Shown piece by piece: positions 16,287 to 34,852 of a stretch of DNA of 64,000 nucleotides. The notes below the pieces were generated by a model that saw nothing but the letters and a program-made list of their open reading frames with translations, had not been told where the DNA came from and did not search any database. Position 1 is the stretch's first letter. Every line of letters begins with the position of its first letter. The translations under genes and the position numbers were made by a program. Source of the stretch: Deltaproteobacteria bacterium (GTDB lineage: Bacteria > Desulfobacterota > Desulfomonilia > UBA1062); assembly GCA_017992605.1 (NCBI GenBank), contig JAGOOG010000005.1, positions 1 to 64,000 on the forward strand, given 5' to 3'.

Positions 16287-17861
16287 TCAGGTCCTGTTGA
16301 GCCTCCGGTACATGGCCCGGTTGTTCCGGTAGATGCCCGTGAACTCTCTGAAGAGCCGGTCATAGACGTCACGGTTGGCCGAGTCCGGATCGAAGCTGTT
16401 CTCGTACTCCATCAGGGCCGGGATGTCTTCGAACGAAATCTCGCCGAGCCCCACCGACGCGATGAACGCGGCACCCCGGGCGTTGGCCTGCATGGGGTCT
16501 TTCGCCTGCCTGATACGGCAGTTGAGCACATCGGCGAAGATCCTGCACCACAGCGAAGACCTCCCCCCGCCTCCCACGATGGTTATGGGATCGAGTTTCC
16601 TGCCCACGAAGCGCTCCACGTGGTGGAGGCTCCAGCGGGTGTTCAGGGCCACGCCTTCGAAAAACGCCCTGGCGATGTCGTCGAAGGTCGTGGTGGTGGA
16701 CAGGTTGTGGATACCGGCACGGACCGTGGTGTCGTCCACGGGCGTGCGCTCCCCGTTGAGCCATGGCGTGACGATGACCCCGTTGCTGCCGGGACGGACC
16801 CTCGAGGCGGCCTCGCCCAGGACCTCGTAGGAAATGCCGCCGTGGTCGCCGCAGGCCATCGTGCAGCAGCGGCCCACGAGTCCGGCGAGGAAATCCAGCG
16901 CCCCGCCGGCGATGTCCTGCTCGTTCACGCTCTGGTACCTGCCTGGTATGGCCGTGGGGAACGAGGCGATGGAGTGGATGACGTCGGTCTTCTTGAACGG
17001 TACGATGCACTGGACCCACGAGGAGGTCCCGATGTAGAGGTGGCCCTCGAAGTCCCGTACCGCTCCCGACCCGATGCAGGCGCACTGGTGGTCAGGGGAG
17101 CCGGCCACCACCCTGACGCCGTCCGGAAGCCCGATCCGCCGAGCCACTTCGGCCTTGAGCGTACCGATGATGTCCGTGGACGCCACCAGCGGCGGGAGCT
17201 TGTCCCTGTCCAGGCCGCTCATCCGGATGAGCCCGTCGTCGTAATGAACGTTCGAGACATCCCTGATGTCCGTGAGCCAGAAGAGGTGCACCGAGTCGTA
17301 CGTGGCGACGAACCTCCCCGTGAGCATGAGGTTCAGGTAATCCTTGCTGGGCAGGAACATGCAGGTCTTCTCGTATACCTCCGGGTATTCATGCTTGATG
17401 AGGAGCGCATGGGCGATGTCGTCCTTGCCGGACAGGGTCGGCACCCCGGCGGTCTTGGGAAGCCACTTAAGGACCCGGGGGATCCCGTACCCCATGAAGC
17501 TCGGGAATCCCTGCACGACCTTCTTCACATACGGGGCACCCCGGGAGTCCATCCAGGTCAGCGCGTTCATGAGGTGCCTGCCGTCCCTGTCCACGGCCAC
17601 GGTGCTCGAGAAGGTGCTGGACACGCAGATCGCGGCTATGTCCGCGGGGCTCACCACGCCCGAACTCACCAGGCGCCGCGAGACCCTCACCAGGGCATCC
17701 CACCACTGGGCGGGGTCCTGTTCCGCACCGCCACCCGGCAGGAAGAAGATGGGGGTCTTCTCGGCGTCGGAGGCGAGTATGCGTCCGTGGGTACTCACCA
17801 GGGAGGCCTTCACCCCGGAGGTCCCGTGGTCTATGGCCAGGATTGTCCGCTGCTTGCCCAT
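16287..17861 (-). CDS. FGGY-family carbohydrate kinase (xylulokinase-like)
   Basis: The 524-residue kinase has both FGGY halves: the N-terminal ATPase-fold signature 'LAIDHGTSGVKASLVS' (residues 8-23), a middle 'GDHGGISYEVLGEA' region, and the C-terminal 'TIVGGGGRSSLWCRIFADVLNCRI ... ANARGAAFIASVGLG' (ADP-binding/FGGY signature). It phosphorylates a sugar or polyol such as xylulose, ribulose or erythritol; the substrate cannot be fixed by eye. It starts 34 bases after the saccharopine-dehydrogenase-like gene and is most likely under the same TetR-type control. Confidence 0.88.
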   Translation of the reverse strand: MGKQRTILAIDHGTSGVKASLVSTHGRILASDAEKTPIFFLPGGGAEQDPAQWWDALVRVSRRLVSSGVVSPADIAAICVSSTFSSTVAVDRDGRHLMNALTWMDSRGAPYVKKVVQGFPSFMGYGIPRVLKWLPKTAGVPTLSGKDDIAHALLIKHEYPEVYEKTCMFLPSKDYLNLMLTGRFVATYDSVHLFWLTDIRDVSNVHYDDGLIRMSGLDRDKLPPLVASTDIIGTLKAEVARRIGLPDGVRVVAGSPDHQCACIGSGAVRDFEGHLYIGTSSWVQCIVPFKKTDVIHSIASFPTAIPGRYQSVNEQDIAGGALDFLAGLVGRCCTMACGDHGGISYEVLGEAASRVRPGSNGVIVTPWLNGERTPVDDTTVRAGIHNLSTTTTFDDIARAFFEGVALNTRWSLHHVERFVGRKLDPITIVGGGGRSSLWCRIFADVLNCRIRQAKDPMQANARGAAFIASVGLGEISFEDIPALMEYENSFDPDSANRDVYDRLFREFTGIYRNNRAMYRRLNRT

Positions 17862-17895: not shown

Positions 17896-19122
17896 TCAGA
17901 TGTCCAGCTTGGTCACCACGCCCTGTTCATCCACCATCTGAAGGATGACGCCGCCGAAGGACTCACCGTCGTCTTTCCTGGCATCGAGTTTCATGACCCT
18001 GGAGATGAGGTTCACGAAGTCCATGGGTTCCACGCAGGCCTCGGGCGGCATCACGCCTGTGCCCCGGATCTTTCCCATGGCCATGAGCATGACCCCCACT
18101 GCCGCCGGTATGCCCGTGCCCTCGCCCAGGGCCTGTGACCTCGATGCCATGTGGAAACGGTACTCCCGGGGGAGACCGTTCTTCATCCCCCTGGCGATGA
18201 CCGAGCAGCAGCCGCAGGGCCTGGTGAATCCGGTTTTTCTGAGGATGCGCTCCCGTTCCCTGAGGACGTAGGCCACGGCGAAATCATGGGGCACGACCTG
18301 GAGGCCCTTCACGTCGATGGGCTCGGTCCGCGCCAGGCCCAGCCCGCACAGGTCCCTGATGAGGTCGTAGTACTCGTTCGGGAGCACCGAGCCCTTGTTG
18401 GTGACCTGCCTGAGCCTGAGATACCTCGGGAGCGTCACCTGCTCGGGATGGGGATAGGGGTAGATGGGGATATCCCTTCCTATCATGGGGAAGTCGAAGG
18501 TCTGCCGCAGGGCCACCCCGTCCGGTTCGAAATACTTCACGGCGGTGAGCTTCCCGTCCAGGTACATGGGGATGTCGATGCTCATGCAGTGGAACCGGTG
18601 GGCGATGACCCCCTCCCCCTCGATGGCCTCGCCGCCGTGGGTGTGGAAGATGTCGACGGCATCGGTCTCGTCCAGCAGGGTGTCGTAGGCGAGCCTGGCC
18701 AGCAGGTTCGTGGCGCCCGGCGAGCTGCCCATGCCGATGAGGGCGGTGACGCCCCTTGCACGCGCCTGGTCGTCCATGTCCAGGATCTCCAGGGTCACAT
18801 CCACGTCGTCACAGATATCCACGTAGTTTATCCCCGCATCGACGACGGCGGTGAGGATGGGCTTGACGGTGGAATAGAAGGGTCCGATGCAGTTGAGCAC
18901 CACCTCGGCTCCCCGTATGGCCCTGCGGATGGTCTCCGGTTCGAAGGCGTCGACGAATGCCGCGGAGACCTTCGGGGAGGCGATCCTGCCGGCGAGCTGC
19001 CGGGCCTTTTCTTCAGCGTGATCCGCTACGACGACCTCAGAGATGATATCCTGACCTGCCAGGGTTTCCACAGCAACGCTGCCTACAGCCCCGCATCCGC
19101 CCAGCACGACGACCTTGGCCAT
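17896..19122 (-). CDS. Saccharopine dehydrogenase-like NAD(P) oxidoreductase
   Basis: A 408-residue protein with an N-terminal Rossmann fold (VVVLGGCGAVGS) and a saccharopine-dehydrogenase-like core ('NCIGPFYSTVKPILTAVVDAGINYVDICDD', 'GMGSSPGATNLLA'). The family includes saccharopine, carboxynorspermidine and related opine-type dehydrogenases; the pairing with a sugar kinase fits none of these pathways clearly. ATG at 19122 follows GGGGGG by about seven bases; TTG at 19137 is a weaker alternative. The promoter and a palindromic operator lie directly upstream. Confidence 0.82.
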   Translation of the reverse strand: MAKVVVLGGCGAVGSVAVETLAGQDIISEVVVADHAEEKARQLAGRIASPKVSAAFVDAFEPETIRRAIRGAEVVLNCIGPFYSTVKPILTAVVDAGINYVDICDDVDVTLEILDMDDQARARGVTALIGMGSSPGATNLLARLAYDTLLDETDAVDIFHTHGGEAIEGEGVIAHRFHCMSIDIPMYLDGKLTAVKYFEPDGVALRQTFDFPMIGRDIPIYPYPHPEQVTLPRYLRLRQVTNKGSVLPNEYYDLIRDLCGLGLARTEPIDVKGLQVVPHDFAVAYVLRERERILRKTGFTRPCGCCSVIARGMKNGLPREYRFHMASRSQALGEGTGIPAAVGVMLMAMGKIRGTGVMPPEACVEPMDFVNLISRVMKLDARKDDGESFGGVILQMVDEQGVVTKLDI

Positions 19123-19142
19123 ATCGGCACCCCCCAATTTCT

Positions 19143-19168
19143 GAACAATGTTAATTTTAACATTGTTC
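19143..19168. promoter_or_regulatory. Perfect palindromic operator (TetR-type)
   Basis: Arms GAACAATGTTAA (19143-19154) and TTAACATTGTTC (19157-19168) are exact reverse complements around a TT spacer, 26 bases in all. The site overlaps the predicted -10 of the dehydrogenase gene. A TetR-family gene ends 66 bases away on the same strand, and length and symmetry fit a TetR dimer pair. The base composition (AT-rich in a GC-rich region) also marks it as functional. Confidence 0.8.
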
Positions 19169-19189
19169 CTATGCGCCCTTCTTTGTCAA
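19162..19189 (-). promoter_or_regulatory. Promoter of the dehydrogenase-kinase operon
   Basis: On the minus strand TTGACA (19189-19184), 16-base spacer, AACAAT (19167-19162). The -10 lies inside one arm of the palindrome, so bound repressor would block polymerase. Confidence 0.55.
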
Positions 19190-19233
19190 GTGCCCTGCTC
19201 CACCTGACCCGGCAGAAGGCACGCAAGATCGTG

Positions 19234-19866
19234 TCAGTTCAGGTACTGGTCGATGAGCTCGTCGATGATGCGGCTGTGGGTCTTTTCTATGTCCGAGGCC
19301 ACATAGCCGATGATGTTGCTGTTGGCGAGAGACACCATGCCGTGCAGCATGCTCCATATCTTGACGACATCGTGGAGGACGTCCTCTTCGCTGCCCCGGA
19401 AGCCCGCTCCCCTGAGGTCCCTGAGCGTGTCCGTGGCGATCCTGGCGATGTCCATGGAAATCTTGTATTCCACCTCGGAGAGCTTCTCGTGCGGGGTGCC
19501 CACATAGTCGTTGTACTTGGGCGTGGGCAGGGTGAACATGATGTCGTAGTAGGACTTGTTGGTCATACCGAACCGTACATAGGCGTCCAGCATGGCATGG
19601 GCCTTTCCCGCGGCGCCGGTGGATGAACCGGACGCCAGCGCCAGCTCGTCGTAGAGCATCTGGAAGCCCTTGATGACGATGGAGATGTAGATCTCCTCCT
19701 TGCTCCTGAAGAAGTTGTAGAGGTTCGGTGCACTCATGTGGAGCCTGGATGCGAGCCTGCGCATGGTGAGGCAGGAAAAGCCCTCCTCCACTATAATCGC
19801 CAAGGCGGCCTCTATGATGCGTTCGCGGATGCGTTCGAGCTCTTCAGGTGTCCTCGGCTGTTTCAT
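19234..19866 (-). CDS. TetR/AcrR-family transcriptional regulator
   Basis: The 210-residue protein has the N-terminal TetR helix-turn-helix ('RIIEAALAIIVEEGFSCLTMRRLASRLHMSAPNLYNFFRSKEEIYISIV', residues 14-62) and a helical ligand domain. It lies upstream of, and on the same strand as, the operator, dehydrogenase and kinase genes, so local repression of that operon is the obvious role. The ligand is unknown. Confidence 0.92.
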   Translation of the reverse strand: MKQPRTPEELERIRERIIEAALAIIVEEGFSCLTMRRLASRLHMSAPNLYNFFRSKEEIYISIVIKGFQMLYDELALASGSSTGAAGKAHAMLDAYVRFGMTNKSYYDIMFTLPTPKYNDYVGTPHEKLSEVEYKISMDIARIATDTLRDLRGAGFRGSEEDVLHDVVKIWSMLHGMVSLANSNIIGYVASDIEKTHSRIIDELIDQYLN

Positions 19867-19928: not shown

Positions 19929-21074
19929 CTATACACCTGAATGGCCCGTGACGAGCCTGGCACCGAGCCGGTTCTGCTTGAGCCTGCCGACGCGACCGGC
20001 GAACTGCACCACCTGGTCAAGGTCGAGGCCCAGGAGACGATGTGCCTCTGAGGGATGGTGCCCTGCCAGGGCCGCCATGTCGCCTATCTCGCGGTGCACC
20101 TGACCGCACAGGCTGCGGAATGCGAGCACCAGCGGTTCGAGGTGATCGCTCGCACCCGGGTTTTCGAGAAGGAAGGCTGCTTCCCTGGCAAGCACATCGA
20201 GGGCGGCTAAAGAACTGCTGACACCCCCGAGCCTGAAAGCGGTCTCATCCGGGACAGGCCCGCTCATGCGCCTCAGTGACGCGATGATCTCGTCCATGCG
20301 GGCCCCCTGGGCCCCGAGGATGGGCCCCATCATGGACGTATCCTCCACCTCACGGAACGGCAGGACCATGTCTTCGTAGGCCGTGTCGGGATTGCCGAGA
20401 AGGGACCCTGGAGGCACCTCGCACCCGTCGAGGATGATGCCGCCGTGCGGGCACGGCCTCAGGAACCCGACATCCAGCGGTCCTGTCACGCTGAGCCCCG
20501 GGCAGTCTCTCGGCACCAGGAAAGCGCTGTAGCGCTTGCGGCCACCGTCCTGCCCGCTCACGGCAAGGACGATGAAGAACCCGGCGATGGGACCGTTGGT
20601 CAGGAAAGACTTCTCTCCCCTGAGGACATATCCGCCCGCGCCCTTCTCGACACTCGTTCTGAGGTGCTTGGGGTGCCCCCCTGCACCGGGCTCGGATATG
20701 GCGATGCTGGCGGTCGCAGTCCCTTGCGCCATGGCCGGCAGGACGGCCTGCTTCTGCCCGGGAGAGGCAAACCGGCACATGAAGAACCGTGCGGTTATCT
20801 GGTGCATGAGCCACGAGAGGGTGATGCCCAGACAGAGGCCGTGACGCGCCAGGGCGCCGCCCGCCGCCGAGATCCCCGGATAGCCGACACCCCCTCCACC
20901 GTACTTTCGAGGCACTCCCGTGCCGAGGAGTCCGGCGGATCCCATCTCACGCCAGAGATCCGCGGGGAAGTCCCTCTCCGTCGAGAGTCCCGGCCGGGCG
21001 GCTATGCGTGCCGCCGCGAACTCCGCCGCATCCCGTACGATCCCTGTCATGATGCTGTCCCGTGTCTTTCCCAT
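19929..21074 (-). CDS. Acyl-CoA dehydrogenase-like protein, divergent C-terminus
   Basis: The 381-residue protein follows the acyl-CoA dehydrogenase plan: helical N-domain ('GSAGLLGTGVPRKYGGGGVGYPG'), beta-domain with 'ATASIAISEPGAGGHPKHLRTSVEK' and 'GEKSFLTNGPIAGFFIVLA', and a helical C-domain. The C-terminal region normally carrying the 'Y.GT.EI' FAD/substrate motif reads 'QFAGRVGRLKQNRLGARLV', and the catalytic Glu is not evident. It may oxidise an unusual acyl-CoA or be non-catalytic. ATG at 21074 begins six bases after the VWA gene stop. Confidence 0.72.
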   Translation of the reverse strand: MGKTRDSIMTGIVRDAAEFAAARIAARPGLSTERDFPADLWREMGSAGLLGTGVPRKYGGGGVGYPGISAAGGALARHGLCLGITLSWLMHQITARFFMCRFASPGQKQAVLPAMAQGTATASIAISEPGAGGHPKHLRTSVEKGAGGYVLRGEKSFLTNGPIAGFFIVLAVSGQDGGRKRYSAFLVPRDCPGLSVTGPLDVGFLRPCPHGGIILDGCEVPPGSLLGNPDTAYEDMVLPFREVEDTSMMGPILGAQGARMDEIIASLRRMSGPVPDETAFRLGGVSSSLAALDVLAREAAFLLENPGASDHLEPLVLAFRSLCGQVHREIGDMAALAGHHPSEAHRLLGLDLDQVVQFAGRVGRLKQNRLGARLVTGHSGV

Positions 21075-21079
21075 GGCGG

Positions 21080-22453
21080 TCAGAGCATGAGCTCCTCGAT
21101 GAAATCGATGAGCTGGTTGAGATTCCTGCATTGCCTGAGCTCGTGGCAGTGCTGCCGGTAGGAATACATTTCACTGTCGCCCGTGTTCCAGCTGCTCTCG
21201 GGTTCGGGATTGAGCCAGATGACCCTCCTGCACCGCTCCCGCATCTCCTCGAGGATCCTGTCCTCGGGGTGGAGGTAGTTGGTCCGCGCATCCCCCATGA
21301 TGATCAGGGTGGTGCGCTTGGTGAGCACATCCATGTGGTTCATCCTGAACTGACGGAAGGTCTCCCCGTAATCCGTTGGAACGAGATAGTTGAAATCGAG
21401 GTCTCCGAGGATCTTGTCGATGGCGACACTGGGCTCGTTCGTGTCGAATATCCCCGTGACCTCCTTCACCCCGGAAACGAACACGAAGCTGTTGACCTTC
21501 TCGAAACACTCGTGCAGTGAGTACAGGACGTTGAGCATGAACCTGGCGGCCGACCACACCGAAGAGGATATGTCGCACAGGGTCACGATCTTCGCTTTCT
21601 TGGGGGGGCGTTTCTTGAACATGATCTCCACGGGCACCCCGTGGTACCGGTCCGCTCTCCGGATGGTCTTCTTCACATCGAGGACGCCCCGGCTGTTCGT
21701 TGCATACCGCCGGGATATGATGTCCTTGAGTTTCCGCACGAGCCTGTCGAGCGCTTCCCGGACCTCCTCTATCTCGCGGGCAGTCAGCGCGCTGAAAGCC
21801 CGTTCTCCCAAGGTCTGGAGACGTTTCTCATGGGTCCTGTAGCTCCGTTCGTCGTTATGCTGTCGCGGCTCCCTGAGCAGGAGAGAAAATGCGCTGTCCA
21901 GGTAGTCGCCGAAATATCGGTTCAGGCTTGCACGCATGGCGTCGTTGAACTGCAGTTGATTCCGGTCGAGAACCTGCCCGATCTCGTCGCGCACCCTGTT
22001 GAGACTGAGCAGAACCTTGAGCCTGCTGGAAAGCGGGCCCAGGTTGAACTTCGCGCCTATTCCCGCAGAATCGCTCTCTGACTGGACCTGGCGCATCATG
22101 TCGAGGAACATGAAGGGATCGCCCGAGAGGAACTCGATGATGGCGCGGTATTCCCGGTCACCGTTGAGCCTCCCCCTGAGGGTGTCTATGACCTGGCCGG
22201 CCTTCCGGGGCATGCCCTCGTCATCGGAAAGGTCACCCCGGAGTTCATGGAAGAAGAGGTGGTAGAGACGGTCGAAGTGGGCCTGGTCGCGCCTGCTCTT
22301 GGCAAAGTTGGCCCGCAGGACCGCCCTGAACTCGTCCTCGTCGATCATGTCGATGAGCTCGAGCTGGCTCGTGCAGTCGAGCACCTCGGCGGTGGAGATC
22401 CGGTATCCGGCCGCCCTGCAGCAGGCAACGAACTTGAGTATCGGGTTGATCAT
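21080..22453 (-). CDS. VWA-domain (CoxE-like) protein
   Basis: The 457-residue cytoplasmic protein has an N-terminal CoxE-like helical region and a C-terminal von Willebrand A domain with a MIDAS-like start ('KIVTLCDISSSVWSAARFMLNVLYSL'; DxSxS present). It follows a MoxR-type AAA+ ATPase by ten bases. MoxR-VWA pairs act as chaperone-like complexes that insert cofactors or remodel target enzymes. The target here could be the acyl-CoA dehydrogenase coded next. Confidence 0.85.
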   Translation of the reverse strand: MINPILKFVACCRAAGYRISTAEVLDCTSQLELIDMIDEDEFRAVLRANFAKSRRDQAHFDRLYHLFFHELRGDLSDDEGMPRKAGQVIDTLRGRLNGDREYRAIIEFLSGDPFMFLDMMRQVQSESDSAGIGAKFNLGPLSSRLKVLLSLNRVRDEIGQVLDRNQLQFNDAMRASLNRYFGDYLDSAFSLLLREPRQHNDERSYRTHEKRLQTLGERAFSALTAREIEEVREALDRLVRKLKDIISRRYATNSRGVLDVKKTIRRADRYHGVPVEIMFKKRPPKKAKIVTLCDISSSVWSAARFMLNVLYSLHECFEKVNSFVFVSGVKEVTGIFDTNEPSVAIDKILGDLDFNYLVPTDYGETFRQFRMNHMDVLTKRTTLIIMGDARTNYLHPEDRILEEMRERCRRVIWLNPEPESSWNTGDSEMYSYRQHCHELRQCRNLNQLIDFIEELML

Positions 22454-22462
22454 GGTACGGCC

Positions 22463-23371
22463 CTAGCCCAGCAGCTCCTGCGCGCGCAGCTTAACGGCCT
22501 CTGCGTCCGAACGGTATTTACAGAGCATGTTCAGCGTCTCGACGAGCACCTCCGGCGTGATGTCTTCGACGTTCAGGGCAATGAGCGCTCTCGCCCAGTC
22601 AATGGTCTCCGAGATGCACGGCTTCTTCTTGAGATCCACGCCGCGGACGCGGCGCACCGCATCGACGACCTGCCCTGCAAGCCTTTCCGTGATCCCCGGG
22701 ATCTTGATGGTCACGATGCGCAGCTCCAGGTCCCGCTCCGGGTATTCGATGTAGATGTGGATGCACCTCCGTTTCAGGGCATCGCTCATGTCACGGTAGT
22801 TGTTCGAGGTGAGGACCACGAAGGGTATGTTCGTGGCCTTCCTCGTACCGATCTCGGGGATGGTGACCTGGAAGTCGCTGAGCAGCTCCAGGAGGAATGC
22901 CTCGAACTCGGGGTCCGACTTGTCAACCTCGTCGATGAGCAGGACCACCGGGCTCTCCATCGTGATGGCCCGAAGCAGCGGCCGCGGCTGGATGAACCGC
23001 TCGGAGAAGAAAGCATCCTCCTGCTCGGCGATCCGGTCCACTGCCTCGGACAGGCTCGCCGCACCGGTTATGACATCGCTGATCTTCTCCTTGACCATCT
23101 GGGTATAGAGGAGCTGTTTGGCATACTCCCATTCATACAGGGCCTTGGCCTCGTCCAGGCCCTCGTAGCACTGCAGGCGGATGAGCTCGCAGTCAAAGGC
23201 CCTCGATACCGCCTTGGCGAGCTCCGTCTTGCCGACCCCGGCAGGCCCTTCGACGAGAACGGGCTTGCCGGTGACCGAGGCGAGGAAGACGACGGTGGCG
23301 ATTTCCTTGGATGTTATGTATCCCACATCCTGCAATCGTTCCTGAACATCGACGACACTTTTGAACATCAT
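22463..23371 (-). CDS. MoxR-family AAA+ ATPase
   Basis: A 302-residue AAA+ protein with Walker A GPAGVGKT (residues 42-49), Walker B 'VVLLIDEVDKSDPEF', sensor 1 'FVVLTSNN' and an arginine finger region 'DALKRRC'. The family works with VWA proteins in enzyme maturation. The start at 23371 follows AAAGGA; open codons upstream are unlikely. It is the first gene of the MoxR-VWA-dehydrogenase run and is divergent from the solute-binding gene. Confidence 0.9.
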   Translation of the reverse strand: MMFKSVVDVQERLQDVGYITSKEIATVVFLASVTGKPVLVEGPAGVGKTELAKAVSRAFDCELIRLQCYEGLDEAKALYEWEYAKQLLYTQMVKEKISDVITGAASLSEAVDRIAEQEDAFFSERFIQPRPLLRAITMESPVVLLIDEVDKSDPEFEAFLLELLSDFQVTIPEIGTRKATNIPFVVLTSNNYRDMSDALKRRCIHIYIEYPERDLELRIVTIKIPGITERLAGQVVDAVRRVRGVDLKKKPCISETIDWARALIALNVEDITPEVLVETLNMLCKYRSDAEAVKLRAQELLG

Positions 23372-23563
23372 GGGGTTGATCCTTTCAAAGTGGAGCATTA
23401 TTCTATACACCAAGCGAAGCGGGAATGAAATATCATCGTAGGAGAGGTGCGCGAAGCCCCGCAACCGCTCTTTCTATGCTGAAGGTAGCACCGCCTTGTT
23501 CCTCGCGACAGGAAAGACAGGTGCATTCATCCACCACAAGCATCCGGAGAAGGAGGACACGCT

Positions 23564-33316: not shown

Positions 33317-34852
33317 CTAGAACGGAAGCGGTACCGGCAGTTCCAGGACGAGACCCGTCAGCTTCGAGACAACGATGACAAGCGCCCCCACCACGAAGAT
33401 CGCGCCGTTGATGCCCAGGAACATGATGTTCACGAGGTGCTGTTTTCGCTTGTCACCCTCTGTCTGGGCCAGGGGTATCACGGAGACGCAGGGGATGTCA
33501 CCCGACCACCCCTCGAGCTGCTTGACACCCTTGACCGTGGAGTCGAGCAGTTCGAGCATGATGATGATACCCGCACCGGTACCCAGGCCCAGGGCCAGGA
33601 AGACCAGCGCGATCCGCATGGGGCTCGGGCTTATCGGCACTTCGGGCGGCTGGGCGTAGTCCACGACCCTGAACTGCTCCCCCTGCTGCCTCTTTTCCAT
33701 GTCCTCGGCCCGCTTCGCCTCGTAATATCTGTCGAGAAGCCTCTGGTAGTTCTGCTGGGTGATGTTGTAGTCCCTGGTGAGAGCGGCAAGCTCCTGCTCC
33801 CTCTTGGGGGTGCCCTCTACACGGCCCTGGTATTGATCTATCTGCATCCTGACCCTGTCGACGTCCCTGCGCAGGGATTCTACCTCGATGTTCGCGTTGC
33901 TGAGCTGGGTTCTCAGGTCGGCGACGCGTGGGTCGAGCCGGGCTGTCGAGGACCCTTCGGGCTGCCTCTCGAGCTGTGCGATCTGGTCCTGGACCCTCCT
34001 TATCTCGGGGTGTTCGGGGGTGTACCGCGACCTCATCTCCTCGAGCTGTCCCCTGAGCTCCGCGATGCGCTGACCCCGCTGCGAAGTGGTCCCGGGGGTT
34101 CCGGAATCGGCCAGGGACAGCTGTCCCTGGATGGTGAGCCGCCGGTTCATGGCCGCGGTCAGCGAGGTCTGGAGGGATTCGAGGCGCATCTGGAGGCTCG
34201 AGATGGTGGAGATGTTGCTCTGGAGCTGGTCGGGCAGCTCGCCCAGGTACATGTTCCGGTATTCCTGGACCTTGGCCTCCTGCTGATTGAGAAGGGCCTT
34301 GAGCTCTTCGAGCTGCTTCTGCAGGAACGATGTGGTTTCTGAAGCCTGGCGTGCCCTGAGCTTGAGGTTGCTGTCGATGAAGTAGGAGGCGAGCCTGTTC
34401 GTGACGTCAGCCACCTCCTTGGGGCTTCTCCCCCTGGAGGTGATCGTGAACGAGCTCGTCTCGTCGCGGGGGCCCACGTTGGTGTTCACGGTGATCCGTC
34501 TGCGGAGGGCCGCTACCAGGATATCCATGGAGGTCCCTTTTGACCTGGCCTCGCCGTAGAGGTTCATCTCCCGGATGATGGCCTCCAGGTTCGATCGGGA
34601 CAGGACCTCCTGGGACAGGGTCCTGACCCGTTCTGCCACCCCCTGGCTCACCGTGGGGGACACATAGGTCTGGGGGATCTCCTGGGACTGCACGAGGATC
34701 AGGGTCGTGGCTTCATAGGTCCTCGGGAGAACGACATATAGCCAGATGCCTGCCAGCAGGAAAAAGACCAGGGGCATGCTCACCCAGTACCACTTCCTGA
34801 TGAGCGCATCCAAGAGATCCTGAATGTTGAGACTCTTTGCCTGTTCCGTCAA
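33317..34852 (-). CDS. Wzz/GumC-type polysaccharide chain-length determinant (XrtA-associated)
   Basis: A 511-residue protein with an N-terminal transmembrane helix (about 20-40), long periplasmic coiled coil (residues 170-390, Gln/Glu/Leu-rich) and C-terminal helices ('IALVFLALGLGTGAGIIIMLELLDSTVKG', then one near residue 485). There is no fused kinase domain. It overlaps the barrel gene start by four bases. It should set chain length and pair with the separate autokinase. Confidence 0.9.
   Translation of the reverse strand: MTEQAKSLNIQDLLDALIRKWYWVSMPLVFFLLAGIWLYVVLPRTYEATTLILVQSQEIPQTYVSPTVSQGVAERVRTLSQEVLSRSNLEAIIREMNLYGEARSKGTSMDILVAALRRRITVNTNVGPRDETSSFTITSRGRSPKEVADVTNRLASYFIDSNLKLRARQASETTSFLQKQLEELKALLNQQEAKVQEYRNMYLGELPDQLQSNISTISSLQMRLESLQTSLTAAMNRRLTIQGQLSLADSGTPGTTSQRGQRIAELRGQLEEMRSRYTPEHPEIRRVQDQIAQLERQPEGSSTARLDPRVADLRTQLSNANIEVESLRRDVDRVRMQIDQYQGRVEGTPKREQELAALTRDYNITQQNYQRLLDRYYEAKRAEDMEKRQQGEQFRVVDYAQPPEVPISPSPMRIALVFLALGLGTGAGIIIMLELLDSTVKGVKQLEGWSGDIPCVSVIPLAQTEGDKRKQHLVNIMFLGINGAIFVVGALVIVVSKLTGLVLELPVPLPF

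Follow-up and report, generated by a model that had tools for sequence, protein, structure and literature searches.

The genes described here lie on the minus strand of the window, by which we mean the whole 64,000-nucleotide stretch of DNA that was analysed, in the order MoxR-like ATPase, VWA protein, acyl-CoA-dehydrogenase-like protein, TetR-family regulator, operator, saccharopine-dehydrogenase-like protein (SDH) and FGGY-family kinase (Table 1). Pfam searches confirmed TetR_N and TetR_C_33 in the regulator, Sacchrp_dh_NADP in the dehydrogenase and FGGY_N and FGGY_C in the kinase. The dehydrogenase gene ends at 17896 and the kinase gene starts at 17861, which leaves a gap of 34 nt. The most likely start of the dehydrogenase is the ATG at 19122, which follows a G-rich stretch; it was preferred to a TTG at 19137, since the latter lies just 6 nt from the inverted repeat described below and orthologue alignment fits the ATG. 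The first-pass annotation had assigned the operon to positions 17896-19866; its order of dehydrogenase followed by FGGY kinase stands, but the kinase gene itself falls outside that span (16287-17861, minus strand). The MoxR (MadB-like), VWA (MadC-like) and acyl-CoA-dehydrogenase-like genes at 19929-23464 are collinear upstream of the TetR gene in several relatives.

Table 1 Features of the TetR, dehydrogenase and kinase locus, with the evidence for each assignment.
Feature	Position	Strand	Evidence and remarks
MoxR/MadB-like AAA ATPase	22463..23464	-	Pfam, NCBIfam, synteny; collinear in the family, upstream
VWA (CoxE/MadC-like) gene	21080..22453	-	Pfam, NCBIfam, synteny; collinear in the family, upstream
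Acyl-CoA-dehydrogenase-like gene	19929..21131	-	Pfam, synteny; collinear in the family, upstream; outside the conserved pair
TetR-family regulator, 210 aa	19234..19866	-	TetR_N + TetR_C_33 (Pfam), NCBIfam; orthologues 48-81%
-35 TTGACA of operon promoter	19184..19189	-	Promoter scan; TTGACA retained in relatives
-10-like AACAAT	19162-19167	-	Promoter scan; within site A
26-bp inverted repeat (sites A + B)	19143..19168	.	Exact match, genome uniqueness, shuffles
Putative operator site A GGAACAATGTTAA	19157..19169	-	Phylogenetic footprint; conserved copy, on the -10
Putative operator site B TTAACATTGTTCA	19142..19154	-	Footprint; 15 bp beyond A; degenerate or lost in several relatives
SDH-like NAD(P) C-N oxidoreductase (predicted), 408 aa, ATG start	17896..19122	-	Pfam, AlphaFold2
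FGGY-family kinase, 524 aa	16287..17861	-	Pfam FGGY_N/FGGY_C, AlphaFold2, tree, signature

We compared the locus with 80 loci of relatives, whose records are labelled Desulfobacterota, Spirochaetes, Chloroflexi, Myxococcota, SAR324, Actinomycetota and archaea. An FGGY gene lies at most 1 kb downstream of the dehydrogenase gene and on the same strand in 67 of them, with a median gap of 47 nt. In the other 13 loci, it is found 1.1-2.0 kb away (three loci), upstream beyond a gene for a RuBisCO-like protein (RLP; two loci), or was not found at all (eight loci, two of which end at a contig edge). The identity matrices of the SDH and FGGY proteins are correlated, with r = 0.81 over 41 loci and 0.69 for the 37 loci with window-type kinases, values that were reached in 0 of 1000 shuffles in either case. 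The joint conservation presupposed by the first-pass annotation is thus found in many phyla, and the pair very probably constitutes one functional unit. No paper on an SDH-FGGY pair was found in the open-access literature.

The genes around the pair vary between loci. We scanned 58 flanking ORFs, i.e. 57 of the 90 listed on the same strand plus one from L126, the 33 left out being already identified, near-copies or short; among the 25 commonest of the 84 families, none occurred in more than three of the 58, and no transporter recurs near the pair among the flanking ORFs. The earlier suggestion of a small catabolic module is thus supported in part only, since no recurrent transporter or further enzyme lies beside the pair. 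A FAD-linked oxidase, by eye alkyl-DHAP-synthase-like, adjoins the pair or the dehydrogenase in L058 (11849-13573) and L105 (6637-8318), and L105 also carries an MttB-like methyltransferase. Both were dropped as functional clues, as they were unrepeated at other loci.

The dehydrogenase scored 64.3 against a Pfam threshold of 25.1 for Sacchrp_dh_NADP and 30.8, just below the threshold of 31, for Sacchrp_dh_C, and did not reach the NCBIfam equivalog cut-off of carboxynorspermidine synthase (NF043000; 37.6 bits vs 800). The best structural match of its AlphaFold2 model (pLDDT 92) was carboxyspermidine dehydrogenase 8deb (Z 41), over the whole length of the fold; other matches were L-lysine dehydrogenase 3abi (Z 35.6) and saccharopine reductase (Z about 29). 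With the carboxyspermidine/carboxynorspermidine dehydrogenases as a group (8deb, 8h50, 4ina, 4rl6), it shares the fold at Z 39-41 over 350-367 residues and 19-25% identity. In the study on 8DEB, His228 is proposed to act as the base, Glu230 and Ser144 to form the relay, and Glu188 and Glu229 to contact the substrate (PMC10413350). In a sequence alignment numbered by eye, His228, Glu230 and Ser144 correspond to His225, Glu227 and Thr138 of the window enzyme, so that the catalytic His, the relay Glu and a Ser/Thr are common to both. Glu188, by contrast, falls on a non-conserved position and Glu229 on Pro226, and the His228-Glu229-Glu230 triad of the carboxyspermidine enzyme (CASDH) is replaced by His225-Pro226-Glu227, with P226 invariant in 58/58 dehydrogenases. 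A further difference is an invariant HxHGGExxEG...HRxH loop: H160, H162, E165, E168, H175, R176 and H178 are found in all 58 sequences and align with the loop which, according to the same study, caps the channel of 8DEB (PMC10413350). L-lysine 6-dehydrogenase (3abi), an amine-oxidising member of the same fold, is only 17% identical to the window enzyme and is described as having no His-Glu-Glu motif (PMC10413350). We infer that the dehydrogenase acts on C-N bonds and that its substrate is an anion.

The kinase exceeded the Pfam thresholds of FGGY_N (132.5 vs 28.8) and FGGY_C (84.4 vs 27) but remained below every NCBIfam equivalog cut-off, including those of gluconokinase and xylulokinase (TIGR01312; 264.7 vs 380.25). 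Together with the score of the dehydrogenase, this bears out the earlier remark that the pair does not fit the known enzymes of lysine, polyamine or pentose metabolism. The AlphaFold2 model (pLDDT 92) resembles glycerol, gluconate and xylulose kinases alike, with a best Z of about 43, and the enzyme has the fold, the catalytic Asp and both FGGY domains in common with xylulokinase, gluconokinase, glycerol kinase and LsrK. At five specificity positions of FGGY kinases, which are R83, E84, Y135, D245 and F270 in glycerol kinase (PMC3245297), the window kinase carries F84, S85, K146, D257 and W282. This FSKDW combination is unlike the known signatures MHGDV (XylB), REYDF (GlpK), RELDQ (LsrK) and GSEDC (AraB). 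K146, W282 and the catalytic Asp, D257, are invariant in 45/45 kinases, and K-D-W is present in all 31 SDH- or RLP-linked kinases of our tree vs none of the eight E. coli FGGY kinases. In this tree, the two groups are split with a support of 97/87, the E. coli branches being long. By sequence, the SDH/RLP-linked kinases are a separate FGGY clade with an unusual putative specificity signature, xxKDW.

In some lineages, the pair or its kinase is accompanied by RLP or a class III aminotransferase. We found the order FGGY-RLP-SDH in the Chloroflexota loci L129 (4988-9218) and L132 (4425-10218; preceded by an amino-acid permease), SDH-FGGY-RLP in the Actinomycetota locus L124/L172 (L172 2805-7307), FGGY-RLP-aminotransferase in L169, and RLP, class III aminotransferase and SDH together in L128. 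In sister genera of the window's own family (L176-L178 and L207-L209), the order is FGGY-HemL-like class III aminotransferase-RLP, with paralogous kinases 46-50% identical to that of the window; in L176, both aminotransferase and RLP fall short of the NCBIfam equivalog cut-offs. Kinase and RLP in these related clusters recall MtnW of methionine salvage and OiaX of isoapionate catabolism, but the RLP stays below their cut-offs (345 vs 513.6 and 188.7 vs 700). The presence of SDH and aminotransferase beside the same core suggests that the two may have similar roles; we do not infer strict replacement, as L128 has both. Among the Chloroflexota, RLP was present in 6/7 examined genomes with the dehydrogenase (the miss being G067/L103; L065 and L099 lie outside the examined set) vs 3/300 others sampled (p=5e-10). 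The genome of the window contains no RLP match at E<=1e-10, and no aminotransferase of the cluster type was found in it; with 8/60 relatives positive, RLP was ruled out as a general partner in this lineage. Five of these eight, G007, G014, G017, G020 and G021 of the window's family, have RLP without the dehydrogenase, where the empty search had no internal positive control.

On this basis, we tentatively propose, with more doubt than confidence, that the dehydrogenase would convert an anionic amino compound to a carbonyl by oxidation at a C-N bond, using the His225-Glu227-Thr138 relay, which is conserved, and a pocket rich in His and Arg, and that the FGGY kinase, with an invariant Lys and Trp in its predicted pocket, would phosphorylate the hydroxylated carbonyl product. 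The assignment of residues to the pockets comes from sequence alignment. In other lineages, the phosphorylated carbonyl may be the substrate of the RLP encoded beside the kinase.

The pair could also work in the reductive, biosynthetic direction, with the kinase making a phosphorylated carbonyl to which the dehydrogenase joins an amine, yielding an opine-like product. We consider this unlikely. In its favour, the nearest solved relatives catalyse reductive condensations (PMC10413350), and the lack of an importer alongside the pair suits an intracellular substrate; the companions at other loci (RLP, aminotransferase, amino-acid permease) nevertheless look catabolic, and the residues proposed to contact the substrate in CASDH, Glu188 and Glu229, are, by eye, not retained. 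Somewhat less probable still is ordinary sugar or sugar-acid catabolism, in which a pentulose- or gluconate-type kinase would be combined with a dehydrogenase acting on a C-OH of the same sugar. The equal closeness of the kinase fold to xylulose, gluconate and glycerol kinases is in line with this, and the invariant pocket Lys would fit a sugar acid. However, the xylulokinase and gluconokinase cut-offs are missed, FSKDW matches none of the eight E. coli kinases, the fold family of the dehydrogenase is C-N active and its C-N relay is retained, and no isomerase, epimerase or aldolase was found among the 25 commonest of the 84 neighbour families.

Upstream of the dehydrogenase, the first-pass annotation had reported an exact 26-bp palindrome overlapping the -10. 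The sequence GAACAATGTTAA-TT-TTAACATTGTTC is indeed present at 19143-19168 with exact arms, but the two central T are unpaired with each other, giving an arrangement of 12+2+12. It is the sole match within three mismatches in the 2.71-Mb genome, 100 dinucleotide shuffles yielded no match at the same tolerance, and it is the only inverted repeat of the window with arms of at least 12 and a spacer of at most 4 (mean of 30 Markov copies, 0.03). With arms of at least 10 (spacer at most 4), the window has one other inverted repeat, a perfect 20-bp palindrome, CCAGGGACAGCTGTCCCTGG, at 34111-34130. The overlap with the -10 was confirmed, as a TTGACA-16-AACAAT promoter match (10/12) covers the repeat.

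The idea of a single 26-bp operator did not survive the phylogenetic footprint of 15 upstream regions (window plus 14 relatives), in which relatives retain one 13-bp site and often lose the second. The 13-mer TKAACNNNGTTMA, either exact or with one mismatch, was present in 11/15 loci, including all nine with a TetR orthologue, and perfect 12-bp arms only in the window. The first copy, beside the -35, is conserved; TTGACA precedes it by 12-14 nt in 10 of the 11 loci with a site and by 7 nt in L040 (counted by eye), a spacing that places this copy on the -10, in agreement with the promoter scan. At 15 bp beyond it (14 in L037), the window, L032, L033, L034, L037 and L045 have a recognisable second copy; L040 has part of one, and none was seen in the upstream regions read of L036, L038, L039 and L041. 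We conclude that the putative operator is a pair of tandem 13-bp quasi-palindromic sites. Paired operators are also known from other TetR repressors, such as QacR, with two quasi-palindromic sites lying side by side over a single promoter, although in relatives of the window one of the two is dispensable. The paired pattern does not occur elsewhere in the genome of the window, and the 13-bp pattern has a single further exact match there (contig C12, 93479-93491; L133), about 0.2 kb before a gene that by eye is aldehyde:ferredoxin-oxidoreductase-like; this match is possibly due to chance.

The regulator scored 44.3 bits for TetR_N (threshold 24) and 50 for TetR_C_33 (26.8), and did not reach the NCBIfam equivalogs FasR, FadR and KstR (39.4 vs 330, 25.3 vs 200 and 27.8 vs 280). 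Its recognition helix, from orthologue comparison, reads S/T-A-P-N-I/L-Y-N. A weight matrix built from 11 footprint sites was scanned over the 80 loci, of which four rows were dropped (L069 and L088 short; L111 and L120 mis-sliced, with the dehydrogenase cut at the contig start). A site was found in 14/17 loci with a TetR gene at most 1.5 kb upstream vs 11/59 remaining loci; for independent loci, without genomes that had built the matrix or had been read with matrix sites, the numbers were 10/13 vs 8/52 (p=4.5e-5; with related genomes such p-values are too favourable). The palindrome-derived site thus does stand before the pair in orthologous loci, and the proposed TetR control of the two-gene unit is supported. 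Among the eight site-bearing loci without such a TetR gene, an orthologue is unlinked in L073 and L075, downstream in L089 and 2.6 kb upstream in L090. Three loci, L072, L115 and L122, have the TetR gene but lack the motif; their TetRs are the most distant, with helices altered to SATN or AAKT, not S/TAPN. In the family of the window, the site is present in 9/9 genomes with a close TetR orthologue (at least 48%), both are lost in G001 of the same genus (best match 39%, no site), and G009, G042 and G052 have neither; G018 and G022, at a completeness of about 80% each, have a site, but a close orthologue was not found in them. Autoregulation is suggested in four relatives by a further site that lies 24-25 nt upstream of the TetR gene; the window has no site there. 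The TetR is no part of the conserved unit, as most of the 80 loci carry the pair without an adjacent TetR.

The palindrome might serve another factor or an RNA hairpin, with the TetR gene nearby by coincidence. The persistence of sites at a few loci where no TetR was found (L039/L113 in G022, 80% complete) fits this, but the co-occurrence of TetR and site, their co-loss in G001, the covariation with the recognition helix and the position of the site on the promoter make it very improbable. It is likely, on this comparative evidence, that the operon is repressed by the TetR encoded at 19234-19866, bound to the two neighbouring 13-bp sites over the -10, and that a small molecule connected with the pathway would lift the repression.

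We regard as the least credible alternative, and a very improbable one, that the dehydrogenase genuinely belongs to lysine or polyamine metabolism, as a saccharopine, lysine or carboxy(nor)spermidine dehydrogenase, and stands next to the kinase for some unrelated reason, since beyond fold and NADP domain it falls far short of carboxynorspermidine synthase, no lysine or polyamine family is among the 25 commonest of the 84 neighbour families, and its conserved partner across phyla is a kinase. The reading we favour as a whole, that of a TetR-repressed operon with paired sites whose products form one unit for C-N oxidation and subsequent phosphorylation of the product, appears plausible, with doubt and confidence nearly in balance. 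It is possible, though rather unlikely in its entirety, that the window represents a short form, with a dedicated TetR, of an undescribed pathway of bacteria and Asgard archaea, in which an SDH-like enzyme or HemL-like aminotransferase would make a carbonyl from an amino compound, the xxKDW kinase would phosphorylate it and, in some lineages, RLP would act next.

The enzyme pair encoded here is real, under local control and widely conserved, and it matches no named enzyme family. The two genes have stayed adjacent in phyla whose loci otherwise have little in common, so their role is probably a general one in anoxic sediments. The kinase signature, the His/Arg-rich loop of the dehydrogenase, the local regulator and the variants with RLP and aminotransferase offer handles on this role. 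As the ligand releasing the TetR and the substrate of the kinase are expected to resemble each other closely, the pathway could be identified by a screen of modest size. The pair occurs in many uncultured anaerobic bacteria and in some archaea and points to uncharted metabolism.
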